Assembly (NCBI RefSeq): GCF_003692615.1
Contig: NZ_CP023540.1
Span: forward strand, 868,001 to 932,000
From: Chryseobacterium sp. 6424
GTDB lineage: Bacteria; Bacteroidota; Bacteroidia; Flavobacteriales; Weeksellaceae
DNA: 64,000 nucleotides
Direction: 5' to 3'
The position numbers and the translations under genes were made by a program. Position 1 is the first letter of the stretch. Every line of letters starts with the position of its first letter. Under the pieces are notes generated by a model. The model had not been told where the DNA came from. It searched no databases and saw only the letters and a list, made by a program, of their open reading frames with translations. Below, one piece after another: positions 1 to 27,128 of the stretch.

Positions 1-1
1 A

Positions 2-721
2 AAAACTATCGTTTTTCTTCACGGAGCGTTTATGAATAAAGAAATATGGGTTCCGCAAATAGAAACCCTTAAAAAAAGTTACAGGGTAATTGCTGTAGAC
101 TTACCTGGGCATGGAAATTCAGATGTGAAAGATAATGAAGTTTCAATTCAAGATTTTGGAAAAAAAATTTCAGAACTCTTAGAAAGCCTGAAAGCAAATA
201 ATGTAATTCTAGTTGGCCATTCCATTGGCGCCGATGTATGTTTAGAAATTTATAGCAATTACAAAGAGGATATCATTGGGTTTGTTGCAGTAGATTATTT
301 TAAAAATATTGGCCAAAGCTTGCCTAAATCAGAAGTTGACAAAATCATCGATCAAATGAACTCAAATTATCCAGCAAGCCTGCAATATTACGTTGAAAAC
401 AATTTGGTAACTAAAGATACAAGTCTTGCTTTAAAGAGAAAGATTGAAAATAATTTTATTAATAGCAATAAAAAATTTGGTATTGAATTAAATAAGAAAG
501 TTTTTGAATATAGTGAAATGGAAAGTGAAAATTTAAAGAAAATTAACTCTAAAGTATATTTTATTAATGTAGATTATTTTCCTACTGACGAAAAAACTCT
601 GGAAAAAAAATTGAAAGATAATTTTGAATTTGTAAGTATACACGGAACTTCACATTATCCAATGCTTGAAAATCCTGAAGTGTTTAATAAATTGTTAGAA
701 GAAATAATTAATAAAATTTAG
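2..721 (+). CDS. Alpha/beta hydrolase, 5' end cut by window edge (cassette 1)
   Basis: An alpha/beta-hydrolase-fold enzyme; the substrate cannot be told. The frame is already open at base 2 and encodes the oxyanion-hole motif FLHGAF just before the first in-window ATG (base 32), so the true start lies left of the window and the ATG at 32 is internal. The nucleophile elbow GHSIG is visible about 70 residues into the visible protein, preceded by DLPGHGNSD, and a GTSHYPMLE motif near the C terminus supplies the likely catalytic His. No signal peptide can be judged. It is the cargo of the leftmost cassette, and the attC-like site follows the stop by 15 bp. AT-rich like the other cassettes. Confidence 0.85.
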   Translation, partial: KTIVFLHGAFMNKEIWVPQIETLKKSYRVIAVDLPGHGNSDVKDNEVSIQDFGKKISELLESLKANNVILVGHSIGADVCLEIYSNYKEDIIGFVAVDYFKNIGQSLPKSEVDKIIDQMNSNYPASLQYYVENNLVTKDTSLALKRKIENNFINSNKKFGIELNKKVFEYSEMESENLKKINSKVYFINVDYFPTDEKTLEKKLKDNFEFVSIHGTSHYPMLENPEVFNKLLEEIINKI

Positions 722-736
722 CCTGATACAACGAAC

Positions 737-929
737 GGCTAACATTGTATTTGCAAAAGGCTGGGTTGAATATATAATAGAAAAACCCGATGCATTTAGT
801 CGCAACTTGCTTTTCATATTGTATTTTTTTGTAATTTAACAATCTGAAAAAGCAATTTGCTTCGTTCGGTCGAAATTGAACTTTTCGTCCAATTTAGCCC
901 GCCCTTCGCAAATACTTTTTCCGTTAGCT
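737..929 (+). repeat. attC-like cassette recombination site 1 (193 bp)
   Basis: Starts with GGCTAAC and ends with GTTAGCT. The outer arms GTATTTGC and GCAAATAC pair. An inner hairpin built on GCTTTTCA / TGAAAAAGC surrounds a T-rich loop containing TTTTTTTGTAATTT. The core is nearly the same as in sites 10, 14, 15 and 18. Confidence 0.8.
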
Positions 930-954
930 GTAAGTTTCCAAAAAAACCGTATAA

Positions 955-1368
955 ATGAAGAAAATATTTACATTGTTTATTTTATTAACAACTTTAATTT
1001 CTTGCTCAATAAATGATAAATCTCTTGAAAACTATATTTCTACTGAAATAGAAAATTCAAATAAATTAAATCTTTCTAACTATCATGAGTTTGATTGGGA
1101 TTCTATAATAATTCTTGGTCCATATTCTAATTTGGCAAAAATTGAGAAGGAAAAGAATATTGATTTATCTAATGTGAATAATTCTATTGAAAGTTTGGAT
1201 AGTATAAACCTTATAATATTTTTGAAAGACAGTAAAGCTGTGAAATATTCTGAAATTAGTAGAAATATTACAGATTTTGACACTTACCAAGAAATTATTA
1301 AAAAGGAAAACGCAAAATTTATTTTGGACGCAAATCAAAATAATTCGAAAATTCTAAAAATAGAATAA
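955..1368 (+). CDS. Small predicted lipoprotein, unknown function (cassette 2)
   Basis: A 137-residue protein not recognised as any named family. It begins with a lipoprotein signal, a basic start (MKKI) followed by a hydrophobic stretch and the lipobox LISC with Cys17, so it should be exported and lipidated. The rest is polar, rich in Asn, Ser, Lys and Glu. It is the only gene of its cassette. Cassette ends: 5' GTTAGCTGTAAGTTT, 3' AAACCTACAGCTAAC, which are complementary except for the A/C pair at position 11. The start lies 25 bp after the preceding site, leaving no room for a complete promoter inside the cassette. Confidence 0.7.
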   Translation: MKKIFTLFILLTTLISCSINDKSLENYISTEIENSNKLNLSNYHEFDWDSIIILGPYSNLAKIEKEKNIDLSNVNNSIESLDSINLIIFLKDSKAVKYSEISRNITDFDTYQEIIKKENAKFILDANQNNSKILKIE

Positions 1369-1375
1369 AACCTAC

Positions 1376-1568
1376 AGCTAACAAGGGTTTGGCGCAATGG
1401 CGGGTTAAGACTAAAATTGAAGTATCGGCTTTCTATTTCGCAAAAAGCCAATTATATTGACTTTTTTCTTTAATTTATTCAATTAATTGTCTTTTGCTTA
1501 CTGTGTCGCTAAATTGAAACTTTTCGCTTCAATTTCCGCCACTGACGCCAAGCCCCGCAACGTTAGCT
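1376..1568 (+). repeat. attC-like cassette recombination site 2 (193 bp)
   Basis: AGCTAAC to GTTAGCT. Outer arms GGTTTGGCG / CGCCAAGCC pair through one T-G wobble. The inner hairpin (AAAAGCCAAT / ATTGTCTTTT) differs in sequence from other sites, yet size and architecture are the same. Confidence 0.75.
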
Positions 1569-1595
1569 GCGATTATAAAACCAACCTGCATAAAA

Positions 1596-2420
1596 ATGAA
1601 AAAACTTTTGACATTATTATTTTTTGTGACAACACTTAATCTTTTTGCACAAAATCAACGTTACGAAAATCTGAATATTTACAAAACTAAATTTGACGAT
1701 GCAATTCCTGTATTAAATGTAGCAACATTTCATATGGGAGAAACTTCAGACGCAAACTCAACGGATTTTGATGAAAACGACAAAAAAAATCAGCAAGAAA
1801 TTAAAAAATTAGCTAGGTTATTGGCTGAATTTAAACCCACAATAATTGTTATTGAAGATTTACCTAAAAACGATAGCATAAGACAAATTTCATATTCAGA
1901 TTATTTAAAAAATCCATTGAAAAAGTTTATAAATCCTGACGAAAGAGAATTGTTAGCTTATGAAGTTGGAAGACTTAGCGGAGCAAAAAAGATTTATGGA
2001 ATTGACTTTAAAGAAGGCTATAACTACAATATAAATGTTATAAACAGTGTAGATACTACTACATTAAATAAATATTCTCTATTAAGTGATGAAAATGATG
2101 CAAAAAATCCAGAGAAAGGAATTCCTTTTTATGAATTATTTAAATTAAATAATCATCCTCAATATTTGGAAAGTCTGATAAACTTTAATGCTGATTTGTT
2201 ATTATACAATTCAAGTAAAAATAATTCTGAGGGAGCAGACGAGGCAGGAAAATTTTATCATAGAAATTTAGTTATGTTCTCTAATCTTAACCAAATTCCT
2301 GTTGGCAAACAGGACAAGATTTTTATCTTAATGGGCGGAACTCATACTGCTTTCTTTATGGATTTTTTAAAAAGAAGTCCAAAATTTAAACTTGAAAACA
2401 CATTTGATTACCTAAAATAA
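1596..2420 (+). CDS. Exported DUF5694 / TraB-like protein (cassette 3)
   Basis: A 274-residue protein with a clear N-terminal signal peptide (hydrophobic residues 4-17 ending LFAQ), so secreted or periplasmic. The body resembles the DUF5694 family, related to the TraB/GumN fold: it has VATFHMGE near residue 45, IIVIEDLP near residue 87 and a late MGGTHTAFF motif. These Glu/His motifs are typical of that family, whose biochemical role is not established. Sole gene of its cassette. The cassette ends GTTAGCTGCGATTAT and AATAACCGCAGCTAAC are mutually complementary. The stop codon is 4 bp before the site, so the cassette is very compact. Confidence 0.65.
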   Translation: MKKLLTLLFFVTTLNLFAQNQRYENLNIYKTKFDDAIPVLNVATFHMGETSDANSTDFDENDKKNQQEIKKLARLLAEFKPTIIVIEDLPKNDSIRQISYSDYLKNPLKKFINPDERELLAYEVGRLSGAKKIYGIDFKEGYNYNINVINSVDTTTLNKYSLLSDENDAKNPEKGIPFYELFKLNNHPQYLESLINFNADLLLYNSSKNNSEGADEAGKFYHRNLVMFSNLNQIPVGKQDKIFILMGGTHTAFFMDFLKRSPKFKLENTFDYLK

Positions 2421-2424
2421 CCGC

Positions 2425-2556
2425 AGCTAACAAGGTATTGCCAAAAGCGGGGTTGAATGGCTTCGATAGGACATTTGTACAAGGTTCAACTTTCGTTCTT
2501 CGATTGAACTTTTGTGCTAAAAATCCCCGCCTTCGGCAATACCCAAACCGTTATCT
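2425..2556 (+). repeat. attC-like cassette recombination site 3 (132 bp, short class)
   Basis: AGCTAAC to GTTATCT. Outer arms GGTATTGCC / GGCAATACC, then AAAAGCGGGG against CCCCGCCTTC. The inner part is a short GGTTCAA / TTGAAC hairpin without the long T-rich central stem. Confidence 0.8.
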
Positions 2557-2658
2557 GCAAGCATATCCAAACCCATTTCGTAGAAGGAATTTCACAAAAA
2601 AACTATCTAAGAATTTAAATTATAGTAATTTTATCTTAACAAAAAGAAATAACAAACA

Positions 2659-2988
2659 ATGAAATATTTATATTTAGCATTAGCGATTGTTCTTGAAGTT
2701 TTAGGTTCAAGTTTTATGAAAGCATCTGACGGATTTTCAAAACTTTTACCCACGACAATAACAATAATAGCATATATTGCTTGCTTTTTCTTCCTTTCTC
2801 AAGCATTAAAATCAATACCTTTAGGAATTGCTTATGCGATTTGGGGAGGTTTAGGAATTGTCTTAACTGCATTGATTTCAGTAATTATCTTTAAACAATC
2901 TTTGGATTTAGCAGCAATTATTGGAATTATTTTGATTGTTGCAGGTGTTTTTGTTATGAACTTTTTCTCTAAATCTTCAACACACTAA
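2659..2988 (+). CDS. SMR-family multidrug efflux protein (cassette 4)
   Basis: A 109-residue small multidrug resistance (EmrE/QacE/SugE-type) transporter. Four transmembrane segments fill almost the whole chain. The conserved membrane-embedded Glu is at about residue 13 in VLEVLGSS, and the family motif GIAYAIWGGLG is in the third helix. SMR proteins act as dimers that exchange protons for cationic drugs or guanidinium; the exact substrate is not deducible. SMR genes (qac) are classic cargo of mobile integrons, so the find fits the context. Cassette ends GTTATCTGCAAGC and GCCTGCAGATAAC pair with the usual mismatch. About 100 bp of non-coding leader precede the ATG, the longest leader among the early cassettes. 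Confidence 0.9.
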   Translation: MKYLYLALAIVLEVLGSSFMKASDGFSKLLPTTITIIAYIACFFFLSQALKSIPLGIAYAIWGGLGIVLTALISVIIFKQSLDLAAIIGIILIVAGVFVMNFFSKSSTH

Positions 2989-2999
2989 AAAATGCCTGC

Positions 3000-3195
3000 A
3001 GATAACATGGGTTTTGCAAGATGCGGGGTTGAAGTAAATCTCAGAAAATTTGTAGAAAATACCCGCAAACAACTTTTCCATTTTTTAGTTTTTTCGTAAT
3101 TTTAAAAAATGGAAAAAGTTTTTGCTAGCGTTCGGTTATCCTCTCCACTTCCGGTTGCAGTAGCCCGCACCTCGCAAAGCCCTTTCCCGTTAGCG
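3000..3195 (+). repeat. attC-like cassette recombination site 4 (196 bp)
   Basis: AGATAAC to GTTAGCG. Outer arms GGGTTTTGC / GCAAAGCCC. The inner stem AACTTTTCCATTTTTTA / TAAAAAATGGAAAAAGTT is almost identical to that of sites 6 and 17. Confidence 0.8.
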
Positions 3196-3227
3196 GTAAT
3201 TTTTGAACTAGTCCCGTCCAAAAACAG

Positions 3228-3749
3228 ATGATGAATAAAAAAACAAAACATTTATTAAACTCTATCCTGCTTGCTTCCACCTCGATTTTATACTTTTTCT
3301 TAGCTTATATTGGTTATGGAAAACAAAATATTGACTTAACTCAAAAGACAACTTATGAAAATATAGTAACTAATAAAGGCATTGGGATTCGTTACGGAAG
3401 TAAAGGCAGACAATCCAAAGTATTCTATATTACTCTCAAAGACTTAGATGAAAAATTGGGAGTTTATAGGATGTCAAAAAATTATGATGACTTACTAAAT
3501 AAATTCGAGATAGGAGAAAAGGTGAAAGTTTATTATAGACCAAGTACAAATAAAAATGAAAACATTAATATTGACCTTATTCAAGTAGAAAAAGATGGTG
3601 AAATTTTAATAAGTAAAACGGAATACGAAAAAAAAGAAAGTGCCTTAATTTATATTGGACTAATTGCTGGATTTGGTACTTTATTTTTAGCATATAGATA
3701 TTATAAATATGGAAGTATTGTTGGCAAAAAGCAAAAAAACTACCGCTAA
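3228..3749 (+). CDS. Two-TM membrane protein, DUF3592-like (cassette 5)
   Basis: A 173-residue inner-membrane protein. One transmembrane helix lies near residues 11-29 and another near residues 136-154, flanking an extracytoplasmic beta-rich domain with a YRPSTNKNENINI segment. This layout resembles DUF3592 proteins, where a short soluble domain with a V-Y-Y-x-P motif sits between two helices. No enzymatic motif is visible. The start could be either of two adjacent ATGs at 3228 or 3231. The TAA stop is inside the recombination site's CGCTAAC box, so the 3' boundary of the gene and of the cassette coincide. Confidence 0.6.
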   Translation: MMNKKTKHLLNSILLASTSILYFFLAYIGYGKQNIDLTQKTTYENIVTNKGIGIRYGSKGRQSKVFYITLKDLDEKLGVYRMSKNYDDLLNKFEIGEKVKVYYRPSTNKNENINIDLIQVEKDGEILISKTEYEKKESALIYIGLIAGFGTLFLAYRYYKYGSIVGKKQKNYR

Positions 3750-3939
3750 CAAGGTATTGCCAAAAGCGGGGCTAAAGTGCTAAATTCAAGGTTTGTACTT
3801 CTATTCCGCCAAAAACGAATTTTATTCGTTTTTGTTTCTTAAATTTAACTCATAAAAATTCGTTTTGGCTCGCCTCGGTGCAAAATCGAAACTTTCCGCT
3901 TCGATTTCCCCGCCTTCGGCAATACCCAAAACGTTGTAC
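3744..3939 (+). repeat. attC-like cassette recombination site 5 (196 bp)
   Basis: CGCTAAC to GTTGTAC. Outer arms GGTATTGCC / GGCAATACC as in the short class, but with an added inner stem built on AAAACGAATTTT / AAAAATTCGTTTT. Closely related to site 21. Confidence 0.8.
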
Positions 3940-3968
3940 GCAATCTCACTACAAAACACTAATAAAGA

Positions 3969-4469
3969 ATGAATTACGAAGAACTTTTAGTTGTAAAAAG
4001 TAAATATGAAATTACATATGCAGATTTACTTGCATTAGATGAATGGAAACTGAAAAGAATGGAAATTTTGGAAAAAGACCAAGAAAAATGCACTGAATGT
4101 GGATCCTCAAAATCATTTGGACCTTTTTTTTCTGGTAGCCAAAAATTATGGGGAAGAAAAATTAATGATGAATCGACTTTAGAGGAAACTCGAAAACTAT
4201 TAGAGATTCATCATAAATATTACATTAGAAATTTATTACCTTGGGAGTATGAAGACGCATTAACAACTTTGTGTTCAGAATGTCATATTAAAGTACACGA
4301 AACAGAAGAAATACCAATTTATTTTGATAGTTCATTAACACAAAAAATAACAACTGAAACTTGCGAGCGTTGCGGTGGAACAGGTTTTTTAAAAGAATAT
4401 GAATATTATCAAGGAGGGGTTTGTTTTGGTTGTCAAGGAACAGGCATGAGAATTCCATGGAATGATTAA
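3969..4469 (+). CDS. HNH-like zinc-binding protein with CxxCxGxG finger (cassette 6)
   Basis: A 166-residue Cys/His-rich protein. Residues about 38-110 have the layout of an HNH/ICEA-type nuclease fold: CTECG, then LEIHHKYYI, then TLCSECHIKVHE. The C terminus carries two CxxCxGxG motifs (CERCGGTG and CFGCQGTG) of the kind seen in the DnaJ zinc finger, giving a second metal site. A nuclease or nucleic-acid-binding role is an inference from the HNH-like region; the HHKYY arrangement keeps the His pair expected of the fold. Cassette ends GTTGTACGCAATCTC and GAGACTGCGTACAAC pair over 15 bp with the single A/C mismatch. Sole gene of the cassette. Confidence 0.6.
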   Translation: MNYEELLVVKSKYEITYADLLALDEWKLKRMEILEKDQEKCTECGSSKSFGPFFSGSQKLWGRKINDESTLEETRKLLEIHHKYYIRNLLPWEYEDALTTLCSECHIKVHETEEIPIYFDSSLTQKITTETCERCGGTGFLKEYEYYQGGVCFGCQGTGMRIPWND

Positions 4470-4478
4470 AGAGACTGC

Positions 4479-4674
4479 GTACAACATGGGTTTTGCAAGA
4501 TGCGGGGTTGAAGGAAATCTCAGAAAAATTCTAGAAAGTACCCGCAAAAAACTTTTCCATTTTTTAGTTTTTTCGTAATTTTAAAAAATGGAAAAAGTTT
4601 TTGCTAGATTTTCGTCCTCCTCTCCACTTTCGGTTGCAGTAGCCCGCACCTCGCAAAGCCCTTTTCCGTTAGCT
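4479..4674 (+). repeat. attC-like cassette recombination site 6 (196 bp)
   Basis: GTACAAC to GTTAGCT, same core as sites 4 and 17. The left box GTACAAC matches the GTTGTAC that begins the same cassette, not the GTTAGCT at the right end of this site. Confidence 0.8.
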
Positions 4675-4695
4675 GCAAGCGTTTAAGTATAAATT

Positions 4696-5781
4696 ATGAG
4701 GACAACAGATATTTCGATTTTTGAAGTTTTTTTTGATGAAGATGATAGACAAATTTTCCTTTGTGATGATTTACAGTTGAAAGCGGATGCATTAAGAAAC
4801 TCAATTCTCCCAAAATTTGATGTTATCACAAATGAAATTATAAAAGGAATAATTGAAATTTATGAAATTGATTTTTTTGAAAATTTATCAATTGTAAAAT
4901 CTCCACATTTTCGAAAATCAAAAGAGCAAAGAAAAGATGAAGTAAAAAAAGATTATCAATATTGTGGTGTTGGAATTTCGGGAAAAAGGGCTGATAATAA
5001 ATGGTTTGGTTTAGATAAAGGAACTAATAAAGTACCAAAAATTAACTTAACAACCTTGTACTTGACAATTGGTTCTACTGGATTTCAAAATGTTTTAAGA
5101 TTTAATCATCCTAAAAATTTTACAGAAGAAACTTATAAAAAATTTTTTGATTTTTTTATTTACGAGAATGAATCTATCGTAAATTTACTTTTAAAAGCAA
5201 ATATGAGTTACGGTTTTTATTATTCTTCTTCACTTACAGTTTATCAAGATTTGATGTTGAAATTTAGTAAAAAAAACTATGATGTCGTTTTTTATAAACC
5301 AACAGTTGAATATCCTTTAGACAATGAAAAGATAGTCGATGCAATATTATCTAACATTATTATTTTTCCCATACTCAATGCTTGTATACAAATTTCTTTA
5401 GGCAATGAGCATAATTTTGAAGAAGACCTAAGAAAACTATCATCGAAAATTTATGATTTCTCTAATTCTTATCAAAATGAAAAGCCAAAAGAAATTAAAG
5501 ATTTGTCCGAAGAAGAAATGTTATTAATCAAAGAAAAAGCAGAACAAAAAATCAAAATTGTGGCAGGAATTAGATGGCAAGTATTCAAAAGGGACAATTG
5601 GAAATGTGTCTCTTGTGGGAAAAGTTCTTTTGATGATGTAATTTTACATATTGACCATATCATTCCTCGATCCTTGGGAGGTAAAGATGATTATGAAAAT
5701 TTTCAAACCTTATGTTCTGAATGTAATATTGGTAAAAGTAATAAGGATACTACAAATTTAAGAAAATATAATAACGCCAGC

Positions 5782-5787
<6 letters not shown>
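4696..5787 (+). CDS. HNH endonuclease domain protein (cassette 7)
   Basis: A 363-residue protein whose last 80 residues form an HNH endonuclease module: RWQVFKRDNWKC, a CxxC pair, HIDHIIPRSLGG and LCSECNIGKSNKD, with the catalytic His-Asn-His positions and four zinc Cys present. The N-terminal 280 residues are not recognised and probably act as a recognition or partner domain. Such fusions occur in restriction and phage-defence proteins, so a DNA-cleaving role is likely, but the target is unknown. The stop TAA lies inside the AGCTAAC box of the next site. The cassette ends GTTAGCTGC and GCAGCTAAC are complementary. Confidence 0.75.
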
Positions 5788-7429
<1,642 letters not shown>

Positions 7430-7442
7430 AAAGAAAAACCGC

Positions 7443-7574: not shown

Positions 7575-7580
7575 GCAATG

Positions 7581-7808: not shown

Positions 7809-7836
7809 TTTTATTTGAGTTTGTGAGAAGCACTGC

Positions 7837-7968: not shown

Positions 7969-8033
7969 GCAATGCTACCAAAACAGCGTCATAGAAAGAA
8001 AATTTTTATTATATTGCCAAAAAAATTAAAAAA

Positions 8034-8480: not shown

Positions 8481-8489
8481 ATCAATAAA

Positions 8490-19000: not shown

Positions 19001-21218
19001 TCAAACACAATATCAAATATTAACTCGAAAAAATAGCATTGATTTAAGTAAGCGTTTATCGTGCTGGGTTATGAAATTCAATGATGTTTTGAATTCAGTA
19101 GGAAGCGAACCTGAAATTTTTGATTGTGTTATTGTTGACGAAGCAAGTCAATTAGACTTTAACAGTCTTATTTTAAGCTATTATGCAGAGAATATGATAA
19201 TTGTTGGCGATGACAAACAAACATCTCCAAGTAGTCTAACTGGAGCAGACGGAAACGATTTTGAATCAATTAAAAATAAACATCTTAAATTTTTAGGTGC
19301 AAACGCCCTTCACATCAAAAGTGATAATAGTTTATTTATGCTTTCAAAGATGGTTGCTGGGACTGCAAATCTAACTTTGAGGGAACATTTCAGATGTGTT
19401 CCTGAAATTATTGAATTCTCAAAATTTCATTTTTATGACAATTCGTTAAGACCTCTGAAACAAATCAACTCAAACAGGTTAAATCCAAAAGAAACTGTTT
19501 TTGTTAACGATGCATTCACAGAAGACAAAATTGTCTATAAAGAAATCGAAGAAATTAAAAAATTTCTTCAAAGAATACTAAAAGACGAACAATATTCAAA
19601 TAAATCCATTGGCGTAGTAAGTTTAGGATTGACAAAACATACTGAAAAACTTAAAGACATAAAAGAGGATTTAGCCAATGAATTTGGAAAAGAGAAAATA
19701 GATAAGCATAAACTTATCATAGAAGATTCTCCAAAATTTCAAGGAGATGAAAGAGATGTTATGATTGTTTCCCTTGGAGTTGCATTAGATTTTCAGAAGT
19801 TGAAAGAGAATCAAAATGCCAAACCACGAGCAATTATTAGTGACCAAGATGAATTTAAAAAAATTAATGTAGCATTAAGTCGGGCGAAAGAACAAATGAT
19901 TTTATTTCATTCAGTTCAGCATAACGATTTACAAACAAATGACTTTAGAAATAAAATCTTAAGTTTCTTCAAAGATGAAGCAAAACCAATTTCTCAATTA
20001 CAAATTGATAACAACAATATTGAAAGATACCGACACAATGTGCCTGAACCATTTGACAGCTGGTTTGAATGTGATATTGCCAAAGCACTTATTGAAAATG
20101 GGTATAGTTATATCCAACCACAATACAATGTAAAAGAAGCTGAACTATTTTATAATCATAAACTTGGAAAACAAGTTTATATTAACTTTAAAATTGATTT
20201 AGTCGTTCACAATAATGGAAAAATGATTGCTATAGAATGTGATGGCGACCCCTTTCATTCACTTCCTGAAGATGTAGCTTACGATATTGAAAGACAGGAA
20301 TTTTTAGAACGTGTTGGATGGAAAGTGTATCGTGTACTTTATTCAGCATTTAAAAGAAGTCCGCAAGAAGAAACACAAAAAATCATTGATTTTATTGAAA
20401 AAAACACGAAGAAAGACCATAAAATAACTATTGAAAAACCAATTGAATTAAAAGAAGAATTTGAAGATGAAATAGAATTTGAAAATGAGGAAGAAATATC
20501 TGAATATGTTTTACCTAAACATAAATCATATATTGATATTTTAGAGGAAAATACCGAAACATCTGATTCTATAAACCAGTTAAATGGCACCACAGCAACA
20601 AATCATAAACACAAGTCATTCATTGATATGATTGAAGAAGATTTGGAAGAATCAAATCAGGTAAATCTATTTTCCTATGATAGCAAAATTCTTTGCTACT
20701 TTAATCTTTTCAGTGACAACACATATAAAGTACAAGAACATTCGGAAGAGAATTGTTTGTTTTCATTACCTATTGACGAAAAGTTTAAAGATGGCTTTCT
20801 TCTTCAATGCTACGACAATGGACATATAAACAAAGTCTATGTAAATTCTATACTGGAAAAGAGAATGAATTATCATTATTCTAATGGCAAAAATCCAAAT
20901 GCTAACATTCTTTATCTAAAATTGATTGAAGAAGATGCGATTATTGCTTTAAAAATAAAACGAGGTTTAGAAACTGTTTTTAAAGCTCATAAGACTGAAA
21001 ATATTTCAAATAGAGAACTTTTGCATTTACAAGGTTACAAAGTTGTATATCAAACGACTGAAAATATTGAATACAAAATTTTACCAAAAAACATTTATGA
21101 AGATATAAGACGATTAGTCTTCACAAGTTTTACTGCAGAAGGGAAATCAGTTCACAACAGTTACTATGAAAATGAATGGAAAATAATAGAGCAATTTATA
21201 CCAAAATTAACCGAATAA
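16035..21218 (+). CDS. Giant SF1 helicase with C-terminal nuclease domain (cassette 16)
   Basis: A 1,727-residue protein. Residues about 370-1330 form a superfamily 1 (Upf1/AAA_11-AAA_12) helicase split by a long coiled-coil insertion: Walker A GPPGTGKSHT (about 386), DCVIVDEASQLD (about 1031), GDDKQTSPSS, REHFRCVPE and late NVALSRAKEQM. Residues about 1340-1460 resemble a DUF559/Vsr-type PD-(D/E)XK nuclease: INFKIDLVV, AIECDGDPFHS, ERVGWKVYRVLYSAF. The first 370 residues and the last 260 are not recognised. Large helicase-nuclease proteins of this kind recur in phage-defence islands, so defence is the best guess. It is by far the biggest cassette here; ends GTTATGCACAATCTT and AAGACTGTGCATAAC confirm it is one unit. 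Confidence 0.8.
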   Translation: MNVLNQYITFLKEYKKLLERGVKDVLNSTVSSNFIWIDEIEHFIESGICESTLIDIFSSKFKRQSLVFSLQKPYKPNIQIPNRFLEIIEFDEAKNKFESINGDEEELVGFQNSTEGKIEIEKLKKFKKNKETYSKLYRAYNDIKNDSNLEIVLSLGFIQYSKFNNNGNLSKTNQHLFHFPLSLDIDSNNVVKISFSDLENPYADFFFLNNTPIEKEVLSNIIDRFEERITELGYEYIFESEFKDLIAKSIQKISSNSEFESSIYKPENDHFREDYFKVLFSPAINIKQRKPRFFEKLTDSIIKHNDENEIEAKLFNLLVRNPESSGNNSYTKPNYFKDELFETHKSKAKNLNGDDDFSVFFPLPFNKEQKQIYENYLKNRLTVVTGPPGTGKSHTIVNILCSLLAQGKRVLVTAQTDKALESLLDKIPETFDDLIFTKIQLETNQNRFSLEKSIGNISKILTDNFYLNVETKIEELDNLKAEYVKLKSEIIRALEKEYTQIRINDTFENLRAYQIVEKFESKESEEWNWIQDELSNEVISNFEVIKDEILKYKQLVGIEIRYNNVINIDISTILKNLEGFDFKNFLSIQEQYIKQLNYLGLNEYSKDKVLKIQLENITKIANEFSNSDIVLKNIKELENLQKQINNRFTQENTTINKSFSNLTENGTKYLLDIETYLSFAENGKAGFFTKLTNSNFKQVSYLEQFTINGKKCNTKSEILQLKSAIENLIIISKNFKLLKQNGFSFSYDDNSNLYEKSLVLNEVLKKVETNKEVVSKIQFNADFINFSEYTQINLFDIDNLSKKAISFKDDIEKLGRINHQLIEKIEILKNIDSIIEHSSLKNEFSKFLPVEKIEDVQYFELLKTKFLEIGKQLDVEQTFLNLKKSLRELLPNTFDSLENIPNHHISKENFEYASANRFIKENEFIDLQKCKEELSFINKKIFQVKCDILFDLAKSNFKNKFNSNEIDAFINLLEEYKYNLSQSVRKIRNQTQYQILTRKNSIDLSKRLSCWVMKFNDVLNSVGSEPEIFDCVIVDEASQLDFNSLILSYYAENMIIVGDDKQTSPSSLTGADGNDFESIKNKHLKFLGANALHIKSDNSLFMLSKMVAGTANLTLREHFRCVPEIIEFSKFHFYDNSLRPLKQINSNRLNPKETVFVNDAFTEDKIVYKEIEEIKKFLQRILKDEQYSNKSIGVVSLGLTKHTEKLKDIKEDLANEFGKEKIDKHKLIIEDSPKFQGDERDVMIVSLGVALDFQKLKENQNAKPRAIISDQDEFKKINVALSRAKEQMILFHSVQHNDLQTNDFRNKILSFFKDEAKPISQLQIDNNNIERYRHNVPEPFDSWFECDIAKALIENGYSYIQPQYNVKEAELFYNHKLGKQVYINFKIDLVVHNNGKMIAIECDGDPFHSLPEDVAYDIERQEFLERVGWKVYRVLYSAFKRSPQEETQKIIDFIEKNTKKDHKITIEKPIELKEEFEDEIEFENEEEISEYVLPKHKSYIDILEENTETSDSINQLNGTTATNHKHKSFIDMIEEDLEESNQVNLFSYDSKILCYFNLFSDNTYKVQEHSEENCLFSLPIDEKFKDGFLLQCYDNGHINKVYVNSILEKRMNYHYSNGKNPNANILYLKLIEEDAIIALKIKRGLETVFKAHKTENISNRELLHLQGYKVVYQTTENIEYKILPKNIYEDIRRLVFTSFTAEGKSVHNSYYENEWKIIEQFIPKLTE

Positions 21219-21228
21219 AAAAGACTGT

Positions 21229-21360
21229 GCATAACAGCAGTTTGGCAAAATGGCGGGTTCAGTGCTAAATTGAACATTCGAATTTCTAATAAACATTAGT
21301 GCTTAATTGAAAGTAATTGCTTCTAAATCCGCCACTTCGCCAAGCTGCAAAACGTTATGC
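21229..21360 (+). repeat. attC-like cassette recombination site 16 (132 bp, short class)
   Basis: GCATAAC to GTTATGC. Outer arms GCAGTTTGGC / GCCAAGCTGC, again a private sequence with full compensation. Here the two boxes are also complementary across the site. Confidence 0.8.
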
Positions 21361-21388
21361 GTAATGCTATCAAAACTCCCGTAGAAAA

Positions 21389-22192
21389 TTGGAAACAATA
21401 AGAAAATACTACAAACCAATTCAACCGACAGTTTCTAAAAATGACGGAGAAATAACTTATCAAGAAATTTATCCAAAAAACGAAATCCAAAATTTTGTTT
21501 ACTGTTTTTGGCAACTGAAAACCAAAAGAAAATTATCAGAAGATTTCAATTATTGTGTTGTTTCTGATGGTTGTATTGATATTTTTTTTGACAATAAACA
21601 ACCCGAGGAGAGTTTTGTTATGGGATTTTGTAGAAAATTTACTGAATTCAACATAGGAAAAGAGTTTAATTATATCGGCATTCGTTTTTTGCCAACTGCT
21701 TTTCCAATATTATTCGGAATAAACGCTAAAAAATTGAGTAATCACTCACAGGAATTGAAAAATATAAATCCCGAAATTTATAATTGGATATGTTCCGAAA
21801 TAAAACCAAGAACTTCATTTGAAGATATTTCAAAAAAATTGAACAAAAAATTGTTAGAGGTTATTCATAATCAAAATATAGAATTAGACCAGCGTTTTTT
21901 GAACTCACTAATTCTAATTTTTCAAAAAAAAGGTTTCTTAAATACAGAAAAAGATTTGGATACAGGTTTAAGTCCTCGACAATTGCGAAGAATTTTTGAT
22001 TATTATATTGGAACAACAGCAAAATCTTTTAGTAATGTTATTCGCTTTCAATACATTTTAAATGCAAAACCTTCCCAACAAAGTTTGAAAAATAATAAAC
22101 TCTATTTTGACGTTGGTTTTTTTGACCAAGCACACTTTATTAAAAACTTCAAAACATTTTATGGAGTAACTCCTTCCGAAGTGTTCCGTTAG
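21389..22192 (+). CDS. AraC-family transcriptional regulator (cassette 17, gene 1 of 2)
   Basis: A 267-residue AraC/XylS-type regulator. The N-terminal part (about residues 15-150) resembles the DUF6597 ligand domain often joined to AraC. The C-terminal third is the double helix-turn-helix, with LSPRQLRRIFDYYIG and the signature GFFDQAHFIKNFKTFYGVTPSE. The frame starts with TTG at 21389, and no ATG fits a full-length N terminus. It is followed 66 bp later by a secreted VOC-fold protein in the same cassette, which is the likely co-transferred target or partner. Cassette ends GTTATGCGTAATGC and GCACTACGCATAAC pair. Confidence 0.85.
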   Translation: METIRKYYKPIQPTVSKNDGEITYQEIYPKNEIQNFVYCFWQLKTKRKLSEDFNYCVVSDGCIDIFFDNKQPEESFVMGFCRKFTEFNIGKEFNYIGIRFLPTAFPILFGINAKKLSNHSQELKNINPEIYNWICSEIKPRTSFEDISKKLNKKLLEVIHNQNIELDQRFLNSLILIFQKKGFLNTEKDLDTGLSPRQLRRIFDYYIGTTAKSFSNVIRFQYILNAKPSQQSLKNNKLYFDVGFFDQAHFIKNFKTFYGVTPSEVFR

Positions 22193-22258
22193 TTTGTCCG
22201 ATTTTTACAATTCCAGCGGTTAATCTCAAACTAAATTTGTAAAACAAAATCGATTATA

Positions 22259-22708
22259 ATGAAAACGATATTACTAACCGCATTTGTTTTGCTTTTTGGA
22301 ATTTCAAATGCACAAACTACAAACAAAATGAAACTTAACGCAGGAATTATTACAGAAAAATTAAGTGAAACCAAAAAATTCTACAAAGAAGTGTTGGACT
22401 TTGGAGTGAGTTTTGAAAATGAATTTTATATTCTTTTGCACACACCAAACAATTCGTCAGAAATCAGTTTTTTGCAACCGAACCATCCAAGTCAAAAACC
22501 TATTTTCCAATCAGCATTTAACGGAAAAGGTGTTTATTTGACTATAGAAGTTGAAAATGTGGACGAAATTTATAAAAGGCTGAAAGACAAAGGTGTTTCA
22601 ATGGAGTTTGAAATCCGAGACGAACTTTGGGGCGACAGACATTTTGCAATTAAAGACCCAAATGGAATTGGAATTGACATTGTAACTTATACAAAACCAG
22701 CAGAATAA
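22259..22708 (+). CDS. Exported VOC/glyoxalase-fold protein (cassette 17, gene 2 of 2)
   Basis: A 149-residue protein with a signal peptide (residues 1-18, ending SNAQ) and then a single VOC (glyoxalase/bleomycin-resistance/dioxygenase) domain: LSETKKFYKEVLDFGV, YLTIEVENVDEIYKRLKD and FAIKDPNGIGIDIVTY. VOC proteins work as dimers with a metal or as antibiotic-binding resistance proteins. They are usually cytoplasmic, so the signal peptide is notable. The substrate is unknown. Paired with the upstream AraC regulator in one cassette. Confidence 0.8.
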   Translation: MKTILLTAFVLLFGISNAQTTNKMKLNAGIITEKLSETKKFYKEVLDFGVSFENEFYILLHTPNNSSEISFLQPNHPSQKPIFQSAFNGKGVYLTIEVENVDEIYKRLKDKGVSMEFEIRDELWGDRHFAIKDPNGIGIDIVTYTKPAE

Positions 22709-22717
22709 AAGCACTAC

Positions 22718-22913
22718 GCATAACATGGGTTTTGCAAGATGCGGGGTTGAAGGAAATCTCAGAAATATTCTAGAAAATACCCGCAAAAAACTTTTCCATT
22801 TTTTAGTTTTTTCGTAATTTTAAAAAATGGAAAAAGTTTTTGCTAGCGTTCGGTCACCTCTTGAAATCTCGGTTGCAGTAGCCCGCACCTCGCAAAGCCC
22901 CTTTCCGTTATCT
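22718..22913 (+). repeat. attC-like cassette recombination site 17 (196 bp)
   Basis: GCATAAC to GTTATCT, same core family as sites 4 and 6 (arms GGGTTTTGC / GCAAAGCCC). Confidence 0.8.
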
Positions 22914-22938
22914 GCAATTTCATAAAAAACCGTCCGAA

Positions 22939-23358
22939 ATGAAAAATTTTTTGTTCTATTTGATATTTATATTTCTAATTTCTTGTGTTTACGACAGTTC
23001 GACTTATAAAATATCAAACTATGATTATGCTGTTAGAGGAAATCTTTTTGAAAAAGGTTGGATACCGCAAATACTGATAAATGAAGAAATGAAAAATATC
23101 TATTTAAAGACAAATGTTGATTCCAATAATTTTTTCTTTCGCTTTAACCTTCCTAAAGCTTATGTTCAACAGCTAACACAAAAACTAAAGCCGATTAAAA
23201 AGCAAAATGTAAAATTGCCAAATAACATTTTGAAGTTAGATGCAAAATTACTGAAGGAAATAAAAAATATTCCAGATTATTTTTTACTTGTTGAAAAAAA
23301 TGATTCAGTAAATGTTGCATTAGACCTCAAAAAAAATATTGTGTATGGTTGGAAATAA
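22939..23358 (+). CDS. Small predicted lipoprotein, unknown function (cassette 18)
   Basis: A 139-residue protein with a lipoprotein signal (MKNFLFYLIFIFLISC, Cys16) and no recognised domain. The mature part alternates polar and aromatic residues (FFFRFNLPKAYVQQL) and ends DLKKNIVYGW. Envelope location is predicted from the lipobox; function is unknown. Cassette ends GTTATCTGCAATTTC and GAAACTGCAGATAAC are complementary over 15 bp with the single A/C mismatch. Confidence 0.65.
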   Translation: MKNFLFYLIFIFLISCVYDSSTYKISNYDYAVRGNLFEKGWIPQILINEEMKNIYLKTNVDSNNFFFRFNLPKAYVQQLTQKLKPIKKQNVKLPNNILKLDAKLLKEIKNIPDYFLLVEKNDSVNVALDLKKNIVYGWK

Positions 23359-23368
23359 AAGAAACTGC

Positions 23369-23562
23369 AGATAACATTGTATTTGCAAAAGGCGGGGTTG
23401 AATATAGAATAGAACTATCAGTTGCATTTAGTCGCAACTTGCTTTTCATATTGTATTTTTTTGTAATTTAACAATCTGAAAAAGCAATTTGCTTCGTTCG
23501 GTCGAAATTGAACCTTTCGGTTAAATTTAGCCCGCCCTTCGCAAATACTTTTTCCGTTAGGT
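23369..23562 (+). repeat. attC-like cassette recombination site 18 (194 bp)
   Basis: AGATAAC to GTTAGGT, core family of sites 1, 10, 14 and 15. Confidence 0.8.
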
Positions 23563-23568
23563 GCAATG

Positions 23569-23796
23569 CTATTTCGACCACGCAGTATCATTCTTCAACA
23601 TACGAAGGACAGCAGGGAAAATGTGTTGCAAGTCATTGGCTGTCATTCCGCTTTTTTCAGCGACTACTGCCATTTGATGTGCTAACATTGCTTCGACTTC
23701 TGTATCTTCTGTGAACAGCCAATTTTGAACCATTGGGTGAGCAGGGGATACTTCTTTAACTCCCTTTCTCCATTTGAAATTTAAAACATTTTCCAT
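23569..23796 (-). CDS. Small reverse-oriented cassette gene, copy 2 (cassette 19)
   Basis: A 75-residue protein, Val variant of copy 1 (TEDTEVEAM). It sits in an exact tandem repeat with copy 3, period 394 bp. Stop 7 bp from the cassette's 5' end, start about 29 bp before the recombination site. Unknown function. Confidence 0.6.
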   Translation of the reverse strand: MENVLNFKWRKGVKEVSPAHPMVQNWLFTEDTEVEAMLAHQMAVVAEKSGMTANDLQHIFPAVLRMLKNDTAWSK

Positions 23797-23824
23797 TTTT
23801 ATTTGAGTTTGTGAGAAGCACTGC

Positions 23825-23956
23825 ACCTAACAAGGTATTGCCAAAAGCAGGGTATTCTCGATTAATTAATCATTTGTAATTCTATTGGGCATTTGTGCAA
23901 GGTTGAAACTTTTGTCTTTCAAATCCCTGCCTTCGGCAATACCCGAACCGTTAGGT
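23825..23956 (+). repeat. attC-like cassette recombination site 19 (132 bp, short class)
   Basis: ACCTAAC to GTTAGGT. Because the same cassette follows on both sides, this is the one site whose two boxes come from identical cassettes. Confidence 0.8.
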
Positions 23957-23962
23957 GCAATG

Positions 23963-24190
23963 CTATTTCGACCACGCAGTATCATTCTTCAACATACGAA
24001 GGACAGCAGGGAAAATGTGTTGCAAGTCATTGGCTGTCATTCCGCTTTTTTCAGCGACTACTGCCATTTGATGTGCTAACATTGCTTCGACTTCTGTATC
24101 TTCTGTGAACAGCCAATTTTGAACCATTGGGTGAGCAGGGGATACTTCTTTAACTCCCTTTCTCCATTTGAAATTTAAAACATTTTCCAT
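23963..24190 (-). CDS. Small reverse-oriented cassette gene, copy 3 (cassette 20)
   Basis: A 75-residue protein with the same translation as copy 2. The tandem arrangement with copy 2 is what repeated integration of one circular cassette, or slippage between adjacent identical sites, would leave. Confidence 0.6.
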   Translation of the reverse strand: MENVLNFKWRKGVKEVSPAHPMVQNWLFTEDTEVEAMLAHQMAVVAEKSGMTANDLQHIFPAVLRMLKNDTAWSK

Positions 24191-24218
24191 TTTTATTTGA
24201 GTTTGTGAGAAGCACTGC

Positions 24219-24350
24219 ACCTAACAAGGTATTGCCAAAAGCAGGGTATTCTCGATTAATTAATCATTTGTAATTCTATTGGGCATTTGTGCAAGGTTGA
24301 AACTTTTGTCTTTCAAATCCCTGCCTTCGGCAATACCCGAACCGTTAGCC
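24219..24350 (+). repeat. attC-like cassette recombination site 20 (132 bp, short class)
   Basis: ACCTAAC to GTTAGCC. Same as sites 9 and 19 until the crossover point. Confidence 0.8.
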
Positions 24351-24371
24351 GTAATTATTTCACAGAATCCT

Positions 24372-25181
24372 ATGAAAAAGATATCAATCCACGACAATAA
24401 TGAATTCTTAGATTTCTTAAACGATAAAATCGACAGAAATGATTTTAGATACAAATATCTTATTCCTGTTCTTGATATGGTTTTTGGTATAGGTCAAGTT
24501 CCTATAACAGAAAATACAACAATATTTACTCATGAAAAAAGTTGGGTTATATATATTGAAACTCACGGACAATTATTTTTATATGGAGAAAATTTCGAAA
24601 TATTCATTGATGAATTGTCTGAAATAATTTCATTTCAAAATTTCAAAGGGTTTGAAATAATGGGAGACTATACTTTAGTTTATAGTCTTTTAGAAAAGAA
24701 AAATATAACAAATTATACAGTTATAAAAGACCGTATTTTTTATTCTCTTAATAATACAGATAAACTTACGCCATCATTTAATGAAACTAAAGCGGAGAAT
24801 CAAGACTGCGATGAAATTACTCAGATGATGCTTGATTATTATGTTGAAGAATACAAAGGTCTGCGAAACAAAACAGTAGAACAAATTAATCCAGCTATTG
24901 TCGAACATATAAATACTAATTCAATTATAATTAATAAAGAGAATAATGTAATTAGAGCATTTTGTACAATTAATGACCCTGATATTGGAATAATCTATGT
25001 TAAACCTGAATACAGAAATCAGAACATTGGCAAACAACTTCTTTCTAGTGCTAGCGAACAATTATTTAAACAAAATGGTTGTTGTTATCTAATGACAGAT
25101 TTAATAAATGAAGCTTCAAATAAAATGTGTATTGATGTTGGTTATTTTGAAATTTACAAACATACTAACATTGAGTTATAA
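24372..25181 (+). CDS. GNAT-family N-acetyltransferase (cassette 21)
   Basis: A 269-residue protein whose start is placed at the ATG of MKKISIHDNN (24372); the frame runs open into the upstream site but that part is not cassette coding. The C-terminal half is a GNAT fold with the acetyl-CoA loop IIYVKPEYRNQNIGKQLL and the following GCCYLMTDLINEASNKM. The first 140 residues are an unrecognised domain, giving a two-domain protein. The acceptor substrate is unknown. Cassette ends GTTAGCCGTAATTAT and ATAACTACGGCTAAC pair. Confidence 0.75.
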   Translation: MKKISIHDNNEFLDFLNDKIDRNDFRYKYLIPVLDMVFGIGQVPITENTTIFTHEKSWVIYIETHGQLFLYGENFEIFIDELSEIISFQNFKGFEIMGDYTLVYSLLEKKNITNYTVIKDRIFYSLNNTDKLTPSFNETKAENQDCDEITQMMLDYYVEEYKGLRNKTVEQINPAIVEHINTNSIIINKENNVIRAFCTINDPDIGIIYVKPEYRNQNIGKQLLSSASEQLFKQNGCCYLMTDLINEASNKMCIDVGYFEIYKHTNIEL

Positions 25182-25185
25182 CTAC

Positions 25186-25382
25186 GGCTAACAAGGTATT
25201 GCCAAAAGCGGGGCTGAAGTGCTAAATTCAAAGTTTGTACTTCTATTATCGCCAAAAACGAATTTTATTCGTTTTTTATTTTTAAATTTAACTCATAAAA
25301 ATTCGTTTTGGCTCGCCTCGGTGCAAAATCGAAAATTTCGCCTTCGATTTCCCCGCCTTCGGCAATACCCAAAACGTTAGCG
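25186..25382 (+). repeat. attC-like cassette recombination site 21 (197 bp)
   Basis: GGCTAAC to GTTAGCG. Core family of site 5, with a few differences in the AAAACGAATTTTATTCG inner stem. Confidence 0.8.
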
Positions 25383-25415
25383 GTCAGGCTAAAAGACGAC
25401 TCCGAAACATAACAA

Positions 25416-26054
25416 ATGGAATTTATAAAACGACTTTTCAAAACAAACAAAAAACCAAGTGACAGTTGGACAATGTTTAGCACTTCAAAATCAGAAGTGA
25501 AAGAATTGCTCGTTTCTACTGGACAGTTGACAATCGGAGACGACTTTTTAAAAATTGAGAATTATCCATTTGAACCTTCTATAGCGTTCAGACAAAATAT
25601 CTTCAAGACAAACCAAATTGACGACATAGATTTTAAATCATATCCACCGACATTTAGAGTTGGTAACGAAATAATATTCTTAACGTCTGAAAAGAAGGTT
25701 GAACTTGAAGAGTTTGCGACAAAGAATAACATTAAGACAGTTGAACGGTCTTGGATTTGGGATTGGATACTTGAACCGTTTTTGGACACAGAATATACAA
25801 CAGAAACAGACCAAAGACTAACAAAACTTTTAGGAAGTTACGGACTGACAAACAACCAAGTGAAATCTTTAAGAGCAGAAGTTGAAACTCAAATGCTTAA
25901 ATACAATTTTGACACTATGCTTTGGGAATGGGGTGGATTTAACGCCTTGGACGTTCTGAGAGCAATACGGACAAAATACAAAAAGGACGAGTATGAAGAC
26001 TTTTACAGACGAGTTATGGAAATAGCGTTATTAACCAAAAAGACAGACGAATGA
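25416..26054 (+). CDS. Hypothetical protein, 212 residues (cassette 22)
   Basis: Not recognised. Soluble, mixed alpha/beta, with no signal peptide or membrane helix. Notable segments are a WIWDWILEPFLDTEY stretch near residues 110-125 and a helical C terminus. It has a more even base composition than most cassette genes, and the codon style (frequent GAC, ACA) resembles the RtcB cassette. Both proteins also end in a KKTDE/EKTDE-like tail, which may hint at a shared source. Cassette ends GTTAGCGGTCAGGC and GCCCGAACCGCTAAC pair with one extra mismatch. Confidence 0.6.
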   Translation: MEFIKRLFKTNKKPSDSWTMFSTSKSEVKELLVSTGQLTIGDDFLKIENYPFEPSIAFRQNIFKTNQIDDIDFKSYPPTFRVGNEIIFLTSEKKVELEEFATKNNIKTVERSWIWDWILEPFLDTEYTTETDQRLTKLLGSYGLTNNQVKSLRAEVETQMLKYNFDTMLWEWGGFNALDVLRAIRTKYKKDEYEDFYRRVMEIALLTKKTDE

Positions 26055-26067
26055 AAGAAGCCCGAAC

Positions 26068-26199
26068 CGCTAACACGGGTTTTGCGTCAGGCGGGGTGAC
26101 GTGCAAACTTGGAGCTTTGTGCTTCTATTCAAGTGTAGTGCAGATTGACAGTTTTGTGCTCCGAAACCCGCCCGAACGCAAAGCCCGAAAACGTTGGGC
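26068..26199 (+). repeat. attC-like cassette recombination site 22 (132 bp, short class)
   Basis: CGCTAAC to GTTGGGC. Outer arms CGGGTTTTGCG / CGCAAAGCCCG; inner part related to site 8. Confidence 0.75.
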
Positions 26200-26205
26200 G
26201 TAATT

Positions 26206-26337
26206 TTAGCCAACTAAATCGACAACCTTTATCCCAAATATGTAATATCGTTTCCTTTGAATACCTTTTACTGTAAATATGGTTGTTGCAAAAGGGGTTA
26301 ATAAAAATCTAAACTCAATAATTCTTTGATGTCTCAT
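26206..26337 (-). CDS. Possible 43-residue reverse ORF in mini-cassette 23
   Basis: Cassette 23 is only about 157 bp between crossover points. The only candidate gene is this reverse ORF (MRHQRIIEF to VVDLVG), which would fill most of it. No family, no clear ribosome binding site, and the composition is ordinary. It may equally be non-coding. The cassette ends GTTGGGCGTAATTTT and AAAAACTACGCCCAAC pair normally, so the unit itself is real. Confidence 0.25.
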   Translation of the reverse strand: MRHQRIIEFRFLLTPFATTIFTVKGIQRKRYYIFGIKVVDLVG

Positions 26338-26349
26338 AATAAAAACTAC

Positions 26350-26477
26350 GCCCAACATTATATTGGCAAAAGCAGGGCTGATGTGCTTAAACCAACAGAA
26401 GTACACTTATTTAACTTTTGTGATGACAGGCAGTAGTACCTCAATTCCCTGCCTTCGCCAATATTTTGCCGTTATGT
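26350..26477 (+). repeat. attC-like cassette recombination site 23 (128 bp, short class)
   Basis: GCCCAAC to GTTATGT. Outer arms ATATTGGC / GCCAATAT, then AAAAGCAGGG / CCCTGCCTTC. Last complete site before the IS3 break. Confidence 0.75.
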
Positions 26478-26507
26478 GCAATGCTGTCAAAAAACTCGCT
26501 AACAACT

Positions 26508-27128
26508 ATGGACAAAAACTTTGATGGATTTGTAATTTACACTAAAACTAATAACAAAAACAAGGCATATGCTATTGTTTCTGAAAATTATGAATGCAAA
26601 GCTGAAACTTCAAAAATTCCCGAAAAATTTAAAAAATATATTGTTCCTATAGAAGATAAAAGATTTTACAATCATAATGGCATTGACTTAAAAGGAACGA
26701 CAAGAGCACTTCTCAGAAATTTTGCAAATTTGAAAGTTTTGGAAGGTGGTAGTACACTTTCTCAACAACTTGCAAGAAATCTTCTAAAAGACAATTCCAA
26801 AACTTTGATAAGAAAAATCCGTGAAACTTTAATCGCGTTTAAACTTGAATACAAATATTCAAAAGACGAAATTCTCAACCTATATTTTAATAATGTTTAT
26901 TTTGGCAAAAATTTAAGAGGAGTTAGAAGTGCTAGTTTATTTTATTTTGACAAAGAACCTGAAAAGCTAAATACTAATGAAATTGTTTTTTTAATTACAA
27001 TTTTGAGAGGACCAAATTACTATCTAAACAATATTGAAGCAACAATCAGAAGAAAAAATATGCTTTCTGAATTATTGTATAAAAATCATAAATATAGTTA
27101 CCCCCAAAGTTTGGACAGTAAATCTTAA
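26508..27128 (+). pseudogene. GT51 transglycosylase, 3' end replaced by IS3 (cassette 24)
   Basis: A peptidoglycan glycosyltransferase (GT51) domain, resembling MtgA and the N-terminal half of class A PBPs, enzymes that polymerise lipid II. The catalytic Glu motif EDKRFYNHNGID and GGSTLSQQLARNLL are both intact. The ATG at 26508 gives a protein with no N-terminal membrane anchor, unlike the core mtgA at 59619. The gene runs into the IS3 end at about 27098, so the last residues (PQSLDSKS) are IS-encoded and the native C terminus and the cassette's own 3' site are lost. The GT51 fold itself appears nearly complete, so some activity could survive. Confidence 0.75.

Follow-up and report, generated by a model that had tools for sequence, protein, structure and literature searches.

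A 64,000-nucleotide stretch of the 2.59 Mb chromosome of Chryseobacterium sp. 6424 (hereafter the window; G000:C1:868001-932000, where G000 is the window genome) carries a large part of an array of gene cassettes bounded by attC-like inverted repeats. This array is very probably a sedentary cassette-capture system that works like a chromosomal integron and is run by a clade of integrases other than IntI. The first-pass annotation had left two options, a divergent integron or a related system of cassettes; the latter fits better, because the recombinase at the head of the array lacks the IntI-type patch and falls into another clade.

The whole array comprises 34 sites, the 23 in the window and 11 more to its left, where the array begins approximately 16 kb away (leftmost site at window coordinate -15439); the array head, cassettes 1-11 and the beginning of cassette 12 are thus located outside the window. 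Scripted site location (741-26473) and the covariance model R1 described below both yielded precisely the 23 in-window sites of the first-pass annotation, and in the 64-kb window the model found none else at E<=1. Site lengths are given here from AAC to GTT; the in-window sites form two size classes, 8 sites of 120-124 bp and 15 of 183-189 bp, equal to the earlier 128-132 and 191-197 bp once four bases are added per end. The long class is real, while the emphasis formerly laid on its length is less telling, given that linked sites of relatives span ~56-190 bp. The in-window array, with all its sites located by script and by model R1, is as follows:

1..26473, + strand, in-window part of the array, 23 attC-like sites
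741..925, +, attC-like site, 185 bp
1380..1564, +, attC-like site, 185 bp
2429..2552, +, attC-like site, 124 bp
3004..3191, +, attC-like site, 188 bp
3748..3935, +, attC-like site, 188 bp
4483..4670, +, attC-like site, 188 bp
5786..5970, +, attC-like site, 185 bp
7447..7570, +, attC-like site, 124 bp
7841..7964, +, attC-like site, 124 bp
8647..8832, +, attC-like site, 186 bp
9662..9846, +, attC-like site, 185 bp
13053..13235, +, attC-like site, 183 bp
13688..13872, +, attC-like site, 185 bp
14555..14740, +, attC-like site, 186 bp
15783..15965, +, attC-like site, 183 bp
21233..21356, +, attC-like site, 124 bp
22722..22909, +, attC-like site, 188 bp
23373..23558, +, attC-like site, 186 bp
23829..23952, +, attC-like site, 124 bp
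24223..24346, +, attC-like site, 124 bp
25190..25378, +, attC-like site, 189 bp
26072..26195, +, attC-like site, 124 bp
26354..26473, +, attC-like site, 120 bp, the last of the array

As noted at first pass, the lists of open reading frames (ORFs) show mostly one-gene units, nearly all on the + strand; a few cassettes hold two or three genes. The exceptions in orientation are cassettes 20, 30 and 31, which have a reverse ORF only, and cassette 12, which has a reverse regulator-like ORF. No ORF of at least 70 aa was listed for cassettes 24 and 34. An inverted-repeat search at minimum length 25 returned only 3 imperfect repeats, and the sites were therefore located by script. In a reverse-strand hairpin scan, the real 100-kb region gave 18 hairpins with a score of at least 30, vs 0 in one block-shuffled copy; about half of the true sites fall under this score. 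An Rfam scan of window positions 1-30000 gave no attC match, and its sole match, snoZ163, was dismissed as chance (24 of 39 bits, under the gathering score, E 0.32).

In integron cassettes, both outer boxes of one attC derive from the two ends of the same cassette. For each cassette, we set the six bases that follow its GTT junction against the six that precede the next AAC. The two ends of the same cassette pair at 6/6 bases in 33 of the 34 cassettes and at 5/6 in one, or 203/204 bases in total; 10,000 shuffles gave a mean of 112 and a best value of 136. The two ends of one physical site match at a mean of just 3.7 of 6 bases. The right end of each site matches instead the left end of the next site, i.e., the one that belongs to its own cassette, and the array thereby shows the ownership pattern of integron cassettes. 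This pairing explains why the bases beyond AAC and GTT had seemed to vary freely: they follow the other end of their own cassette. Nor are AAC and GTT the only fixed letters, as the first-pass annotation had it, GTTR being present in 35/35 junctions. The integron consensus is RYYYAAC / GTTRRRY; the array does not follow it, GTTRRRY fitting 4/35 junctions.

In an energy model, the bottom strand of the reconstituted site is the more stable one in 33/34 cases; for linked sites elsewhere, taken as they stand, the same holds in 216/255. A longer right than left spacer (267/278 sites) was dropped as a special feature, because the five linked sites of the canonical-IntI locus L130 look alike by eye.

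Whole cassettes are duplicated in the array, with identity ending 2-7 bases from the junctions, and others are shared with congeners:

924..1564, +, cassette 13, lipoprotein-like ORF (by reading), same sequence over 639 bp as cassette 8 (located left of the window)
7569..7964, +, cassette 20, 394 bp, 99.7% identity with cassettes 30 and 31
7963..8832, +, cassette 21, same sequence over 868 bp as cassette 25 (13871-14740)
13234..13872, +, cassette 24, present whole in the array of congener G028 (84% over 1-637 of 637)
23557-23952 and 23951-24346, +, cassettes 30 and 31, identical tandem copies
25377..26195, +, cassette 33, present in the array of congener G032 (88% over 1-709 of 817)

Above 70 aa, the 394-bp cassette with its three copies has just an 85-aa reverse-strand ORF, opposing the array direction; a 71-aa forward frame overlaps one copy. 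Sharing was assessed by blastn against the fetched loci of relatives, which hold parts of arrays only, with matches of at least 250 bp. Cassette 24 is the sole such match of the window genome's array in the G028 array. The match of cassette 33 in G032 runs from the junction to just inside its own site, most of the site being unmatched, and a part of cassette 9 is matched in G031 (L034 and L172 denote one and the same locus). The other 31 cassettes gave no match of this length in these loci. Relatives, which the first-pass annotation had proposed to search, do carry such sites, with almost entirely different cassettes. The few shared cassettes suggest that the content nearly wholly turns over between species, while the platform stays.

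Extension to the left of the window, also proposed at first pass, revealed a tyrosine recombinase and, next to cassette 1, an attI-like junction. The array head is ordered as tyrosine recombinase gene, putative attI and cassette 1:

window -17197 to -16103 (G000:C1:850803-851897), -, tyrosine recombinase of 364 aa, divergent from the array (Phage_integrase, 134.5 bits)
window -16025 to -15989 (G000:C1:851975-852011), promoter-like TTTG-N19-TATATTTG at the attI-like junction (sequence pattern)

Residues R219, K244, H308, R311 and H334 of this integrase are invariant in 21/21 orthologs and Y343 is nearly invariant; we take these six to be the catalytic residues. The putative attI junction, GTTAGCGG, is located 114 bp off the integrase start codon and pairs 6/6 with cassette 1. 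Its position and sequence point to an attI, i.e., the site beside the integrase gene that would receive cassette 1. A junction matching the first cassette (at least 6 of 7 bases) follows the integrase at 77-160 bp in 12 of 23 loci, and at 348 bp and 1706 bp in two more of them. Ahead of the junction, GCGTATATTTG is exact in 15/21 ortholog loci, and a looser pattern fits 18/21. TTTG-N19-TATATTTG presumably fits the Bacteroidetes promoter consensus; the -7-like box adjoins GTT in 17/21 ortholog loci, and both boxes (with TTTG-N18-20) are found in 9/21. The integrase has an N-terminal extension, residues 1-90, with a conserved W-x(5-9)-W motif that is present in 25/25 members of its family, 23/42 other Bacteroidia rows, 6/30 others and 0/18 IntI. 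In Pfam, the extension has only sub-threshold DUF5710 matches, in 7/10 members; that it replaces the IntI domain is no more than a guess.

Comparison of the integrase with IntI separated the two by models, motif spacing and phylogeny. The best NCBIfam models are NF040815, at 208 bits under its cut-off of 220, and the integron integrase model TIGR02249, at 184.6 bits vs a cut-off of 265, in two pieces; the phmmer alignment with the IntI4 structure 2a3v is likewise split. The spacing between two catalytic-domain motifs is 57 residues in 25/25 family members and 99 in 18/18 IntI (16 of 30 fetched canonical loci that passed the ORF filter, plus L129 and L130); no Bacteroidia row in this comparison has the 99-residue spacing. 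The IntI-specific domain of ~42 residues is thus absent from all 25 family members and present in all 18 IntI, and the IntI-type patch that the first-pass annotation had proposed to look for in a recombinase beside the first cassette is missing throughout the family. In a careful tree of 71 rows, IntI form a 100/100 clade excluding the window family, which is itself a 100/100 clade within a Bacteroidia clade (85/90); an earlier quick tree of 111 rows kept the same two clades apart. Forcing the window family together with IntI was rejected by the approximately unbiased (AU) test (p-AU 0.0199), a result that concerns this grouping, the deeper relation between the Bacteroidia clade and IntI being beyond its reach. 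By these tests, the window integrase is not an IntI.

Orthologs of the integrase (54-67% identity, nearly full length) were found in 20/35 congeners, and one more in part. Linked sites lie beside orthologs in 14/17 fetched flanks, and five of these 14 exceed every one of 300 shuffles. At one congener locus (L027/L053, G034:C3), an attI core and the integrase are present with no linked sites in the adjoining 19.9 kb; it looks like an empty platform, in a genome that nonetheless has 21 model-R1 sites. The ~40% identical homologs L032-L040 were withdrawn as array-free controls, their both-side flanks showing 3' linked sites; for integrases of this second family, linked sites occur in 11/15 flanks, on the 3' side and the same strand, few per locus. 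A second-family integrase is also encoded on a plasmid of Chryseobacterium sp. SNU WT5, on which model R1 found 5 sites at E<1e-15. This plasmid (NZ_CP041688.1, L194) contains a group II intron reverse transcriptase gene at 2496-3812 within its cassette array, flanked by the R1 sites 1881-2001 and 4950-5069; elsewhere, group II introns are known to target attC. A plasmid search with the window integrase matched 478 records, all at <60% identity, the top-ranked at 37.7% over 96% of the query.

In a further set of 110 loci (L058-L167), 12 Bacteroidota loci have at least one link, 9 of the 12 at no less than twice the shuffled mean; Flavobacterium enshiense, Rufibacter and Algibacter have the most links, and three canonical-IntI loci have links as well. 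The attI-like junction comes after the gene in two Flavobacterium species (L059 and L060) and before it in the window's genus (L011-L031). The array was seen in L059, and the L060 sequence ends too early. As these loci belong to one integrase clade, the difference suggests a flip of layout.

To survey the sites, we used covariance model R1, built from 82 sites of 31 fetched loci and the window, 4 of the 82 being window sites; it also recovers the long sites, for which no separate model was made. R1 sites were found in 36/36 genomes of the genus (E<=0.001). In the window's class, Bacteroidia, R1 matched 205 of 295 sampled genomes and 121/156 genera (E<=1e-6); canonical IntI was found in one of the same 295 genomes. 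The 205 are model matches rather than proven arrays, because the training set of R1 consisted of Bacteroidia sites selected by pairing and the E-values are approximate. An outside-phylum control of 39 non-Bacteroidota loci (549 kb) gave one R1 match at E<=1, with E 0.76. Eleven flanks of canonical intI genes gave none at E<=0.001 (best E 0.0024); scripted pairing detected linked hairpins, of unclear orientation, in six of these flanks.

Among 12 genomes chosen for strong R1 sites, 11 carry a member of this integrase clade (E<=1e-70). By its coordinates, the integrase lies no more than ~5 kb from the closest clustered site in 10 genomes; gene and cluster are divergent in some of them and point the same way in others. 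Ten loci from these strong-site genomes, none used in R1 training, contain 64 sites and 54 neighbouring pairs; three pairs were set aside as their match did not end at AAC or GTT. The remaining 51 include 44 pairs at 6/6, one at 5/6 and six with fewer matching bases. Pairs with at least 5 of 6 bases thus number 45/51, vs a shuffled mean of 5.7 and a maximum of 14. The six poorer pairs span 2.3-10.6 kb, and an intervening site may have been missed.

These features are consistent with the following mechanism. The integrase encoded to the left of the window would take up circular cassettes with one site each and insert them, by a cut at G^TT, into the attI-like site next to its gene; it would also excise and re-insert cassettes. 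The outer boxes from the two ends of one cassette would pair in the circular form, giving the attC-like inverted repeat, and the site would probably act with its bottom strand folded. The first cassettes may be expressed from a Bacteroidetes-type promoter that ends at the junction. We infer that the recombination is performed by this integrase, whose separate Bacteroidia tyrosine recombinase clade, devoid of the IntI-specific domain, heads such arrays in many genera of the class.

Several observations weigh against this interpretation. Nine of the 14 linked genus flanks are not above the best of 300 shuffles, because they hold too few sites per flank; among the 11 linked second-family flanks, only L177 exceeds all 300. 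Three of the 17 ortholog flanks (L043, L051 and L053) show no linked sites, L043 being a wrong-side flank. The class-wide Bacteroidia integrase clade is just moderately supported, and the 12 genomes in which integrase and sites were compared had been selected by their strong sites; the G090 sites are not beside an integrase, and G404 has no integrase past the threshold. R1 also matches 12/61 genomes of another class of the phylum (21, 11 and 15 matches in G116, G638 and G081), where the sites perhaps arrived by transfer. One genome per species was compared, which puts strain-level gain or loss beyond the reach of the comparison. Finally, the promoter and the choice of a folded single strand are read from sequence, and excision, insertion and cassette circles are predicted events.

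Three other explanations were considered. The array could be an ordinary integron with an IntI that simply diverged and shed its additional domain. It has the same anatomy and site logic; TIGR02249 matches all 21 orthologs (best E 5.7e-59), the comparison with the cut-off being for the first member only, and the insertion is not fully conserved in an integron-like subgroup, according to Smyshlyaev et al. (PMC8138268). Against these points, the model score of the window integrase falls well below the cut-off and is split in two stretches, IntI form a fully supported clade without the family, their joint grouping is rejected, and none of the compared Bacteroidia rows has the IntI spacing. We consider such a divergence unlikely.

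A still less probable explanation makes the integrase a bystander, the cassettes being moved in trans by another recombinase or being the remains of a lost integron. The window genome has nine PF00589 matches in all, and some site clusters have no nearby clade integrase (G404), yet there is no canonical IntI match in this genome, nor in G020, the one congener listed. Moreover, the integrase stands at the head of site clusters across many genera, in two layouts, the junction often matches the first cassette (the 12/23 loci above), and GCGTATATTTG precedes it unchanged in most ortholog loci. That the sites are dispersed palindromic repeats, similar to repetitive extragenic palindromes (REP) or miniature inverted-repeat transposable elements (MITE), is hardly credible. 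They are intergenic inverted repeats with shared inner arms, as such elements would be, but dispersed repeats would give no reason for the right end of a copy to match the left end of its successor, for duplicated genes to be delimited at GTT, or for one strand to be kept within each of ten loci (64 matches).

With the cassette-capture system under a non-IntI integrase as the preferred reading, comparison with known systems revealed both common and distinct features. Like sedentary chromosomal integrons of the Vibrio, Xanthomonas and Treponema type, it has a divergent integrase gene with an attI-like site between gene and array, cassettes that mostly carry one gene and share a direction, GTT/AAC junctions, outer boxes that belong to a single cassette and a more stable bottom strand. 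Unlike them, it has an integrase that lacks the IntI-specific domain and groups outside the IntI clade, it keeps GTTR while GTTRRRY occurs in just 4 of its junctions, and its site model does not go beyond E 0.0024 in canonical-intI flanks, six of them with linked hairpins. With the canonical integrons known from other classes of Bacteroidota (e.g., Salinibacter ruber, PMC9024848), it has the phylum and the cassette arrays in common, whereas those integrons encode a true IntI, which exceeds the cut-off in 84 of 296 genomes of the phylum, one of them in the window's class. The best overall model and structure matches of the integrase are the XerA/XerC-like simple tyrosine recombinases (NF040815, 4a8e, 5hxy), with which it shares the lack of a long insert between the catalytic motifs; it differs in scoring under the NF040815 cut-off, in its tie to arrays and attI, and in the N-terminal extension.

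Reviews name Bacteroidota among the integron-bearing phyla (PMC8618304), and for Bacteroidetes the IntegronFinder 2.0 paper reports only In0 from its previous survey, followed by a single complete integron, that of Salinibacter (PMC9024848). In surveys, the defining feature of an integron is IntI with its additional domain (PMC9668308, PMC2426708), and this domain has been called essential to integron function (PMC8138268). By the survey definition, the system described here is not an integron; it works like one. In the portion of the open PubMed Central (PMC) literature covered, subscription papers and preprints being outside its scope, no description of this system was found, and an integron-like system with its own recombinase clade is, as far as found, new. 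We lean towards the broader reading that the class has its own widespread integron system apart from IntI, with attC- and attI-like sites and a distinct integrase clade, present in most members and missed by standard surveys because these search for IntI. If 205/295 class genomes do carry such sites, vs 1/295 with IntI, a large gene-capture system has been overlooked. The system also opens a long-standing question to testing: does recombination of folded attC sites require the IntI-specific domain, or does another clade manage without it?

The cassette content was scanned with Pfam (20 ORFs) and PADLOC (10 ORFs). Defence is prominent among the cassettes, yet not exclusive. Two type II restriction-modification pairs were found, with EcoRV-type and EcoO109I-type restriction enzymes, each with a methyltransferase, along with a GmrSD-like protein, an HNH protein and a defence-like helicase-nuclease:

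15964..21356, +, cassette 27 (5.4 kb), protein of 1727 aa, AAA helicase domains plus an MTES_1575 nuclease domain

Because of the restriction-modification pairs, the GmrSD-like protein and the helicase-nuclease, the array may be a store of defence genes. Other products include a GNAT enzyme, a carbonic anhydrase, RtcB and a DnaJ-domain protein. Cassette 5 (L010:7732-8490, left of the window) encodes a metallo-beta-lactamase-fold protein (Pfam Lactamase_B), and a small multidrug resistance (SMR) transporter cassette is located at window 2659-2988. The last site is followed by the beginning of a further unit:

26472..27130, +, beginning of the 35th unit, transglycosylase-like ORF (by reading), without a site of its own (ORF list)

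After the array, a two-ORF insertion sequence (IS3-like by reading) at 27251-28380 seems to abut and cut a large helicase-like reverse ORF at 28404-30335.

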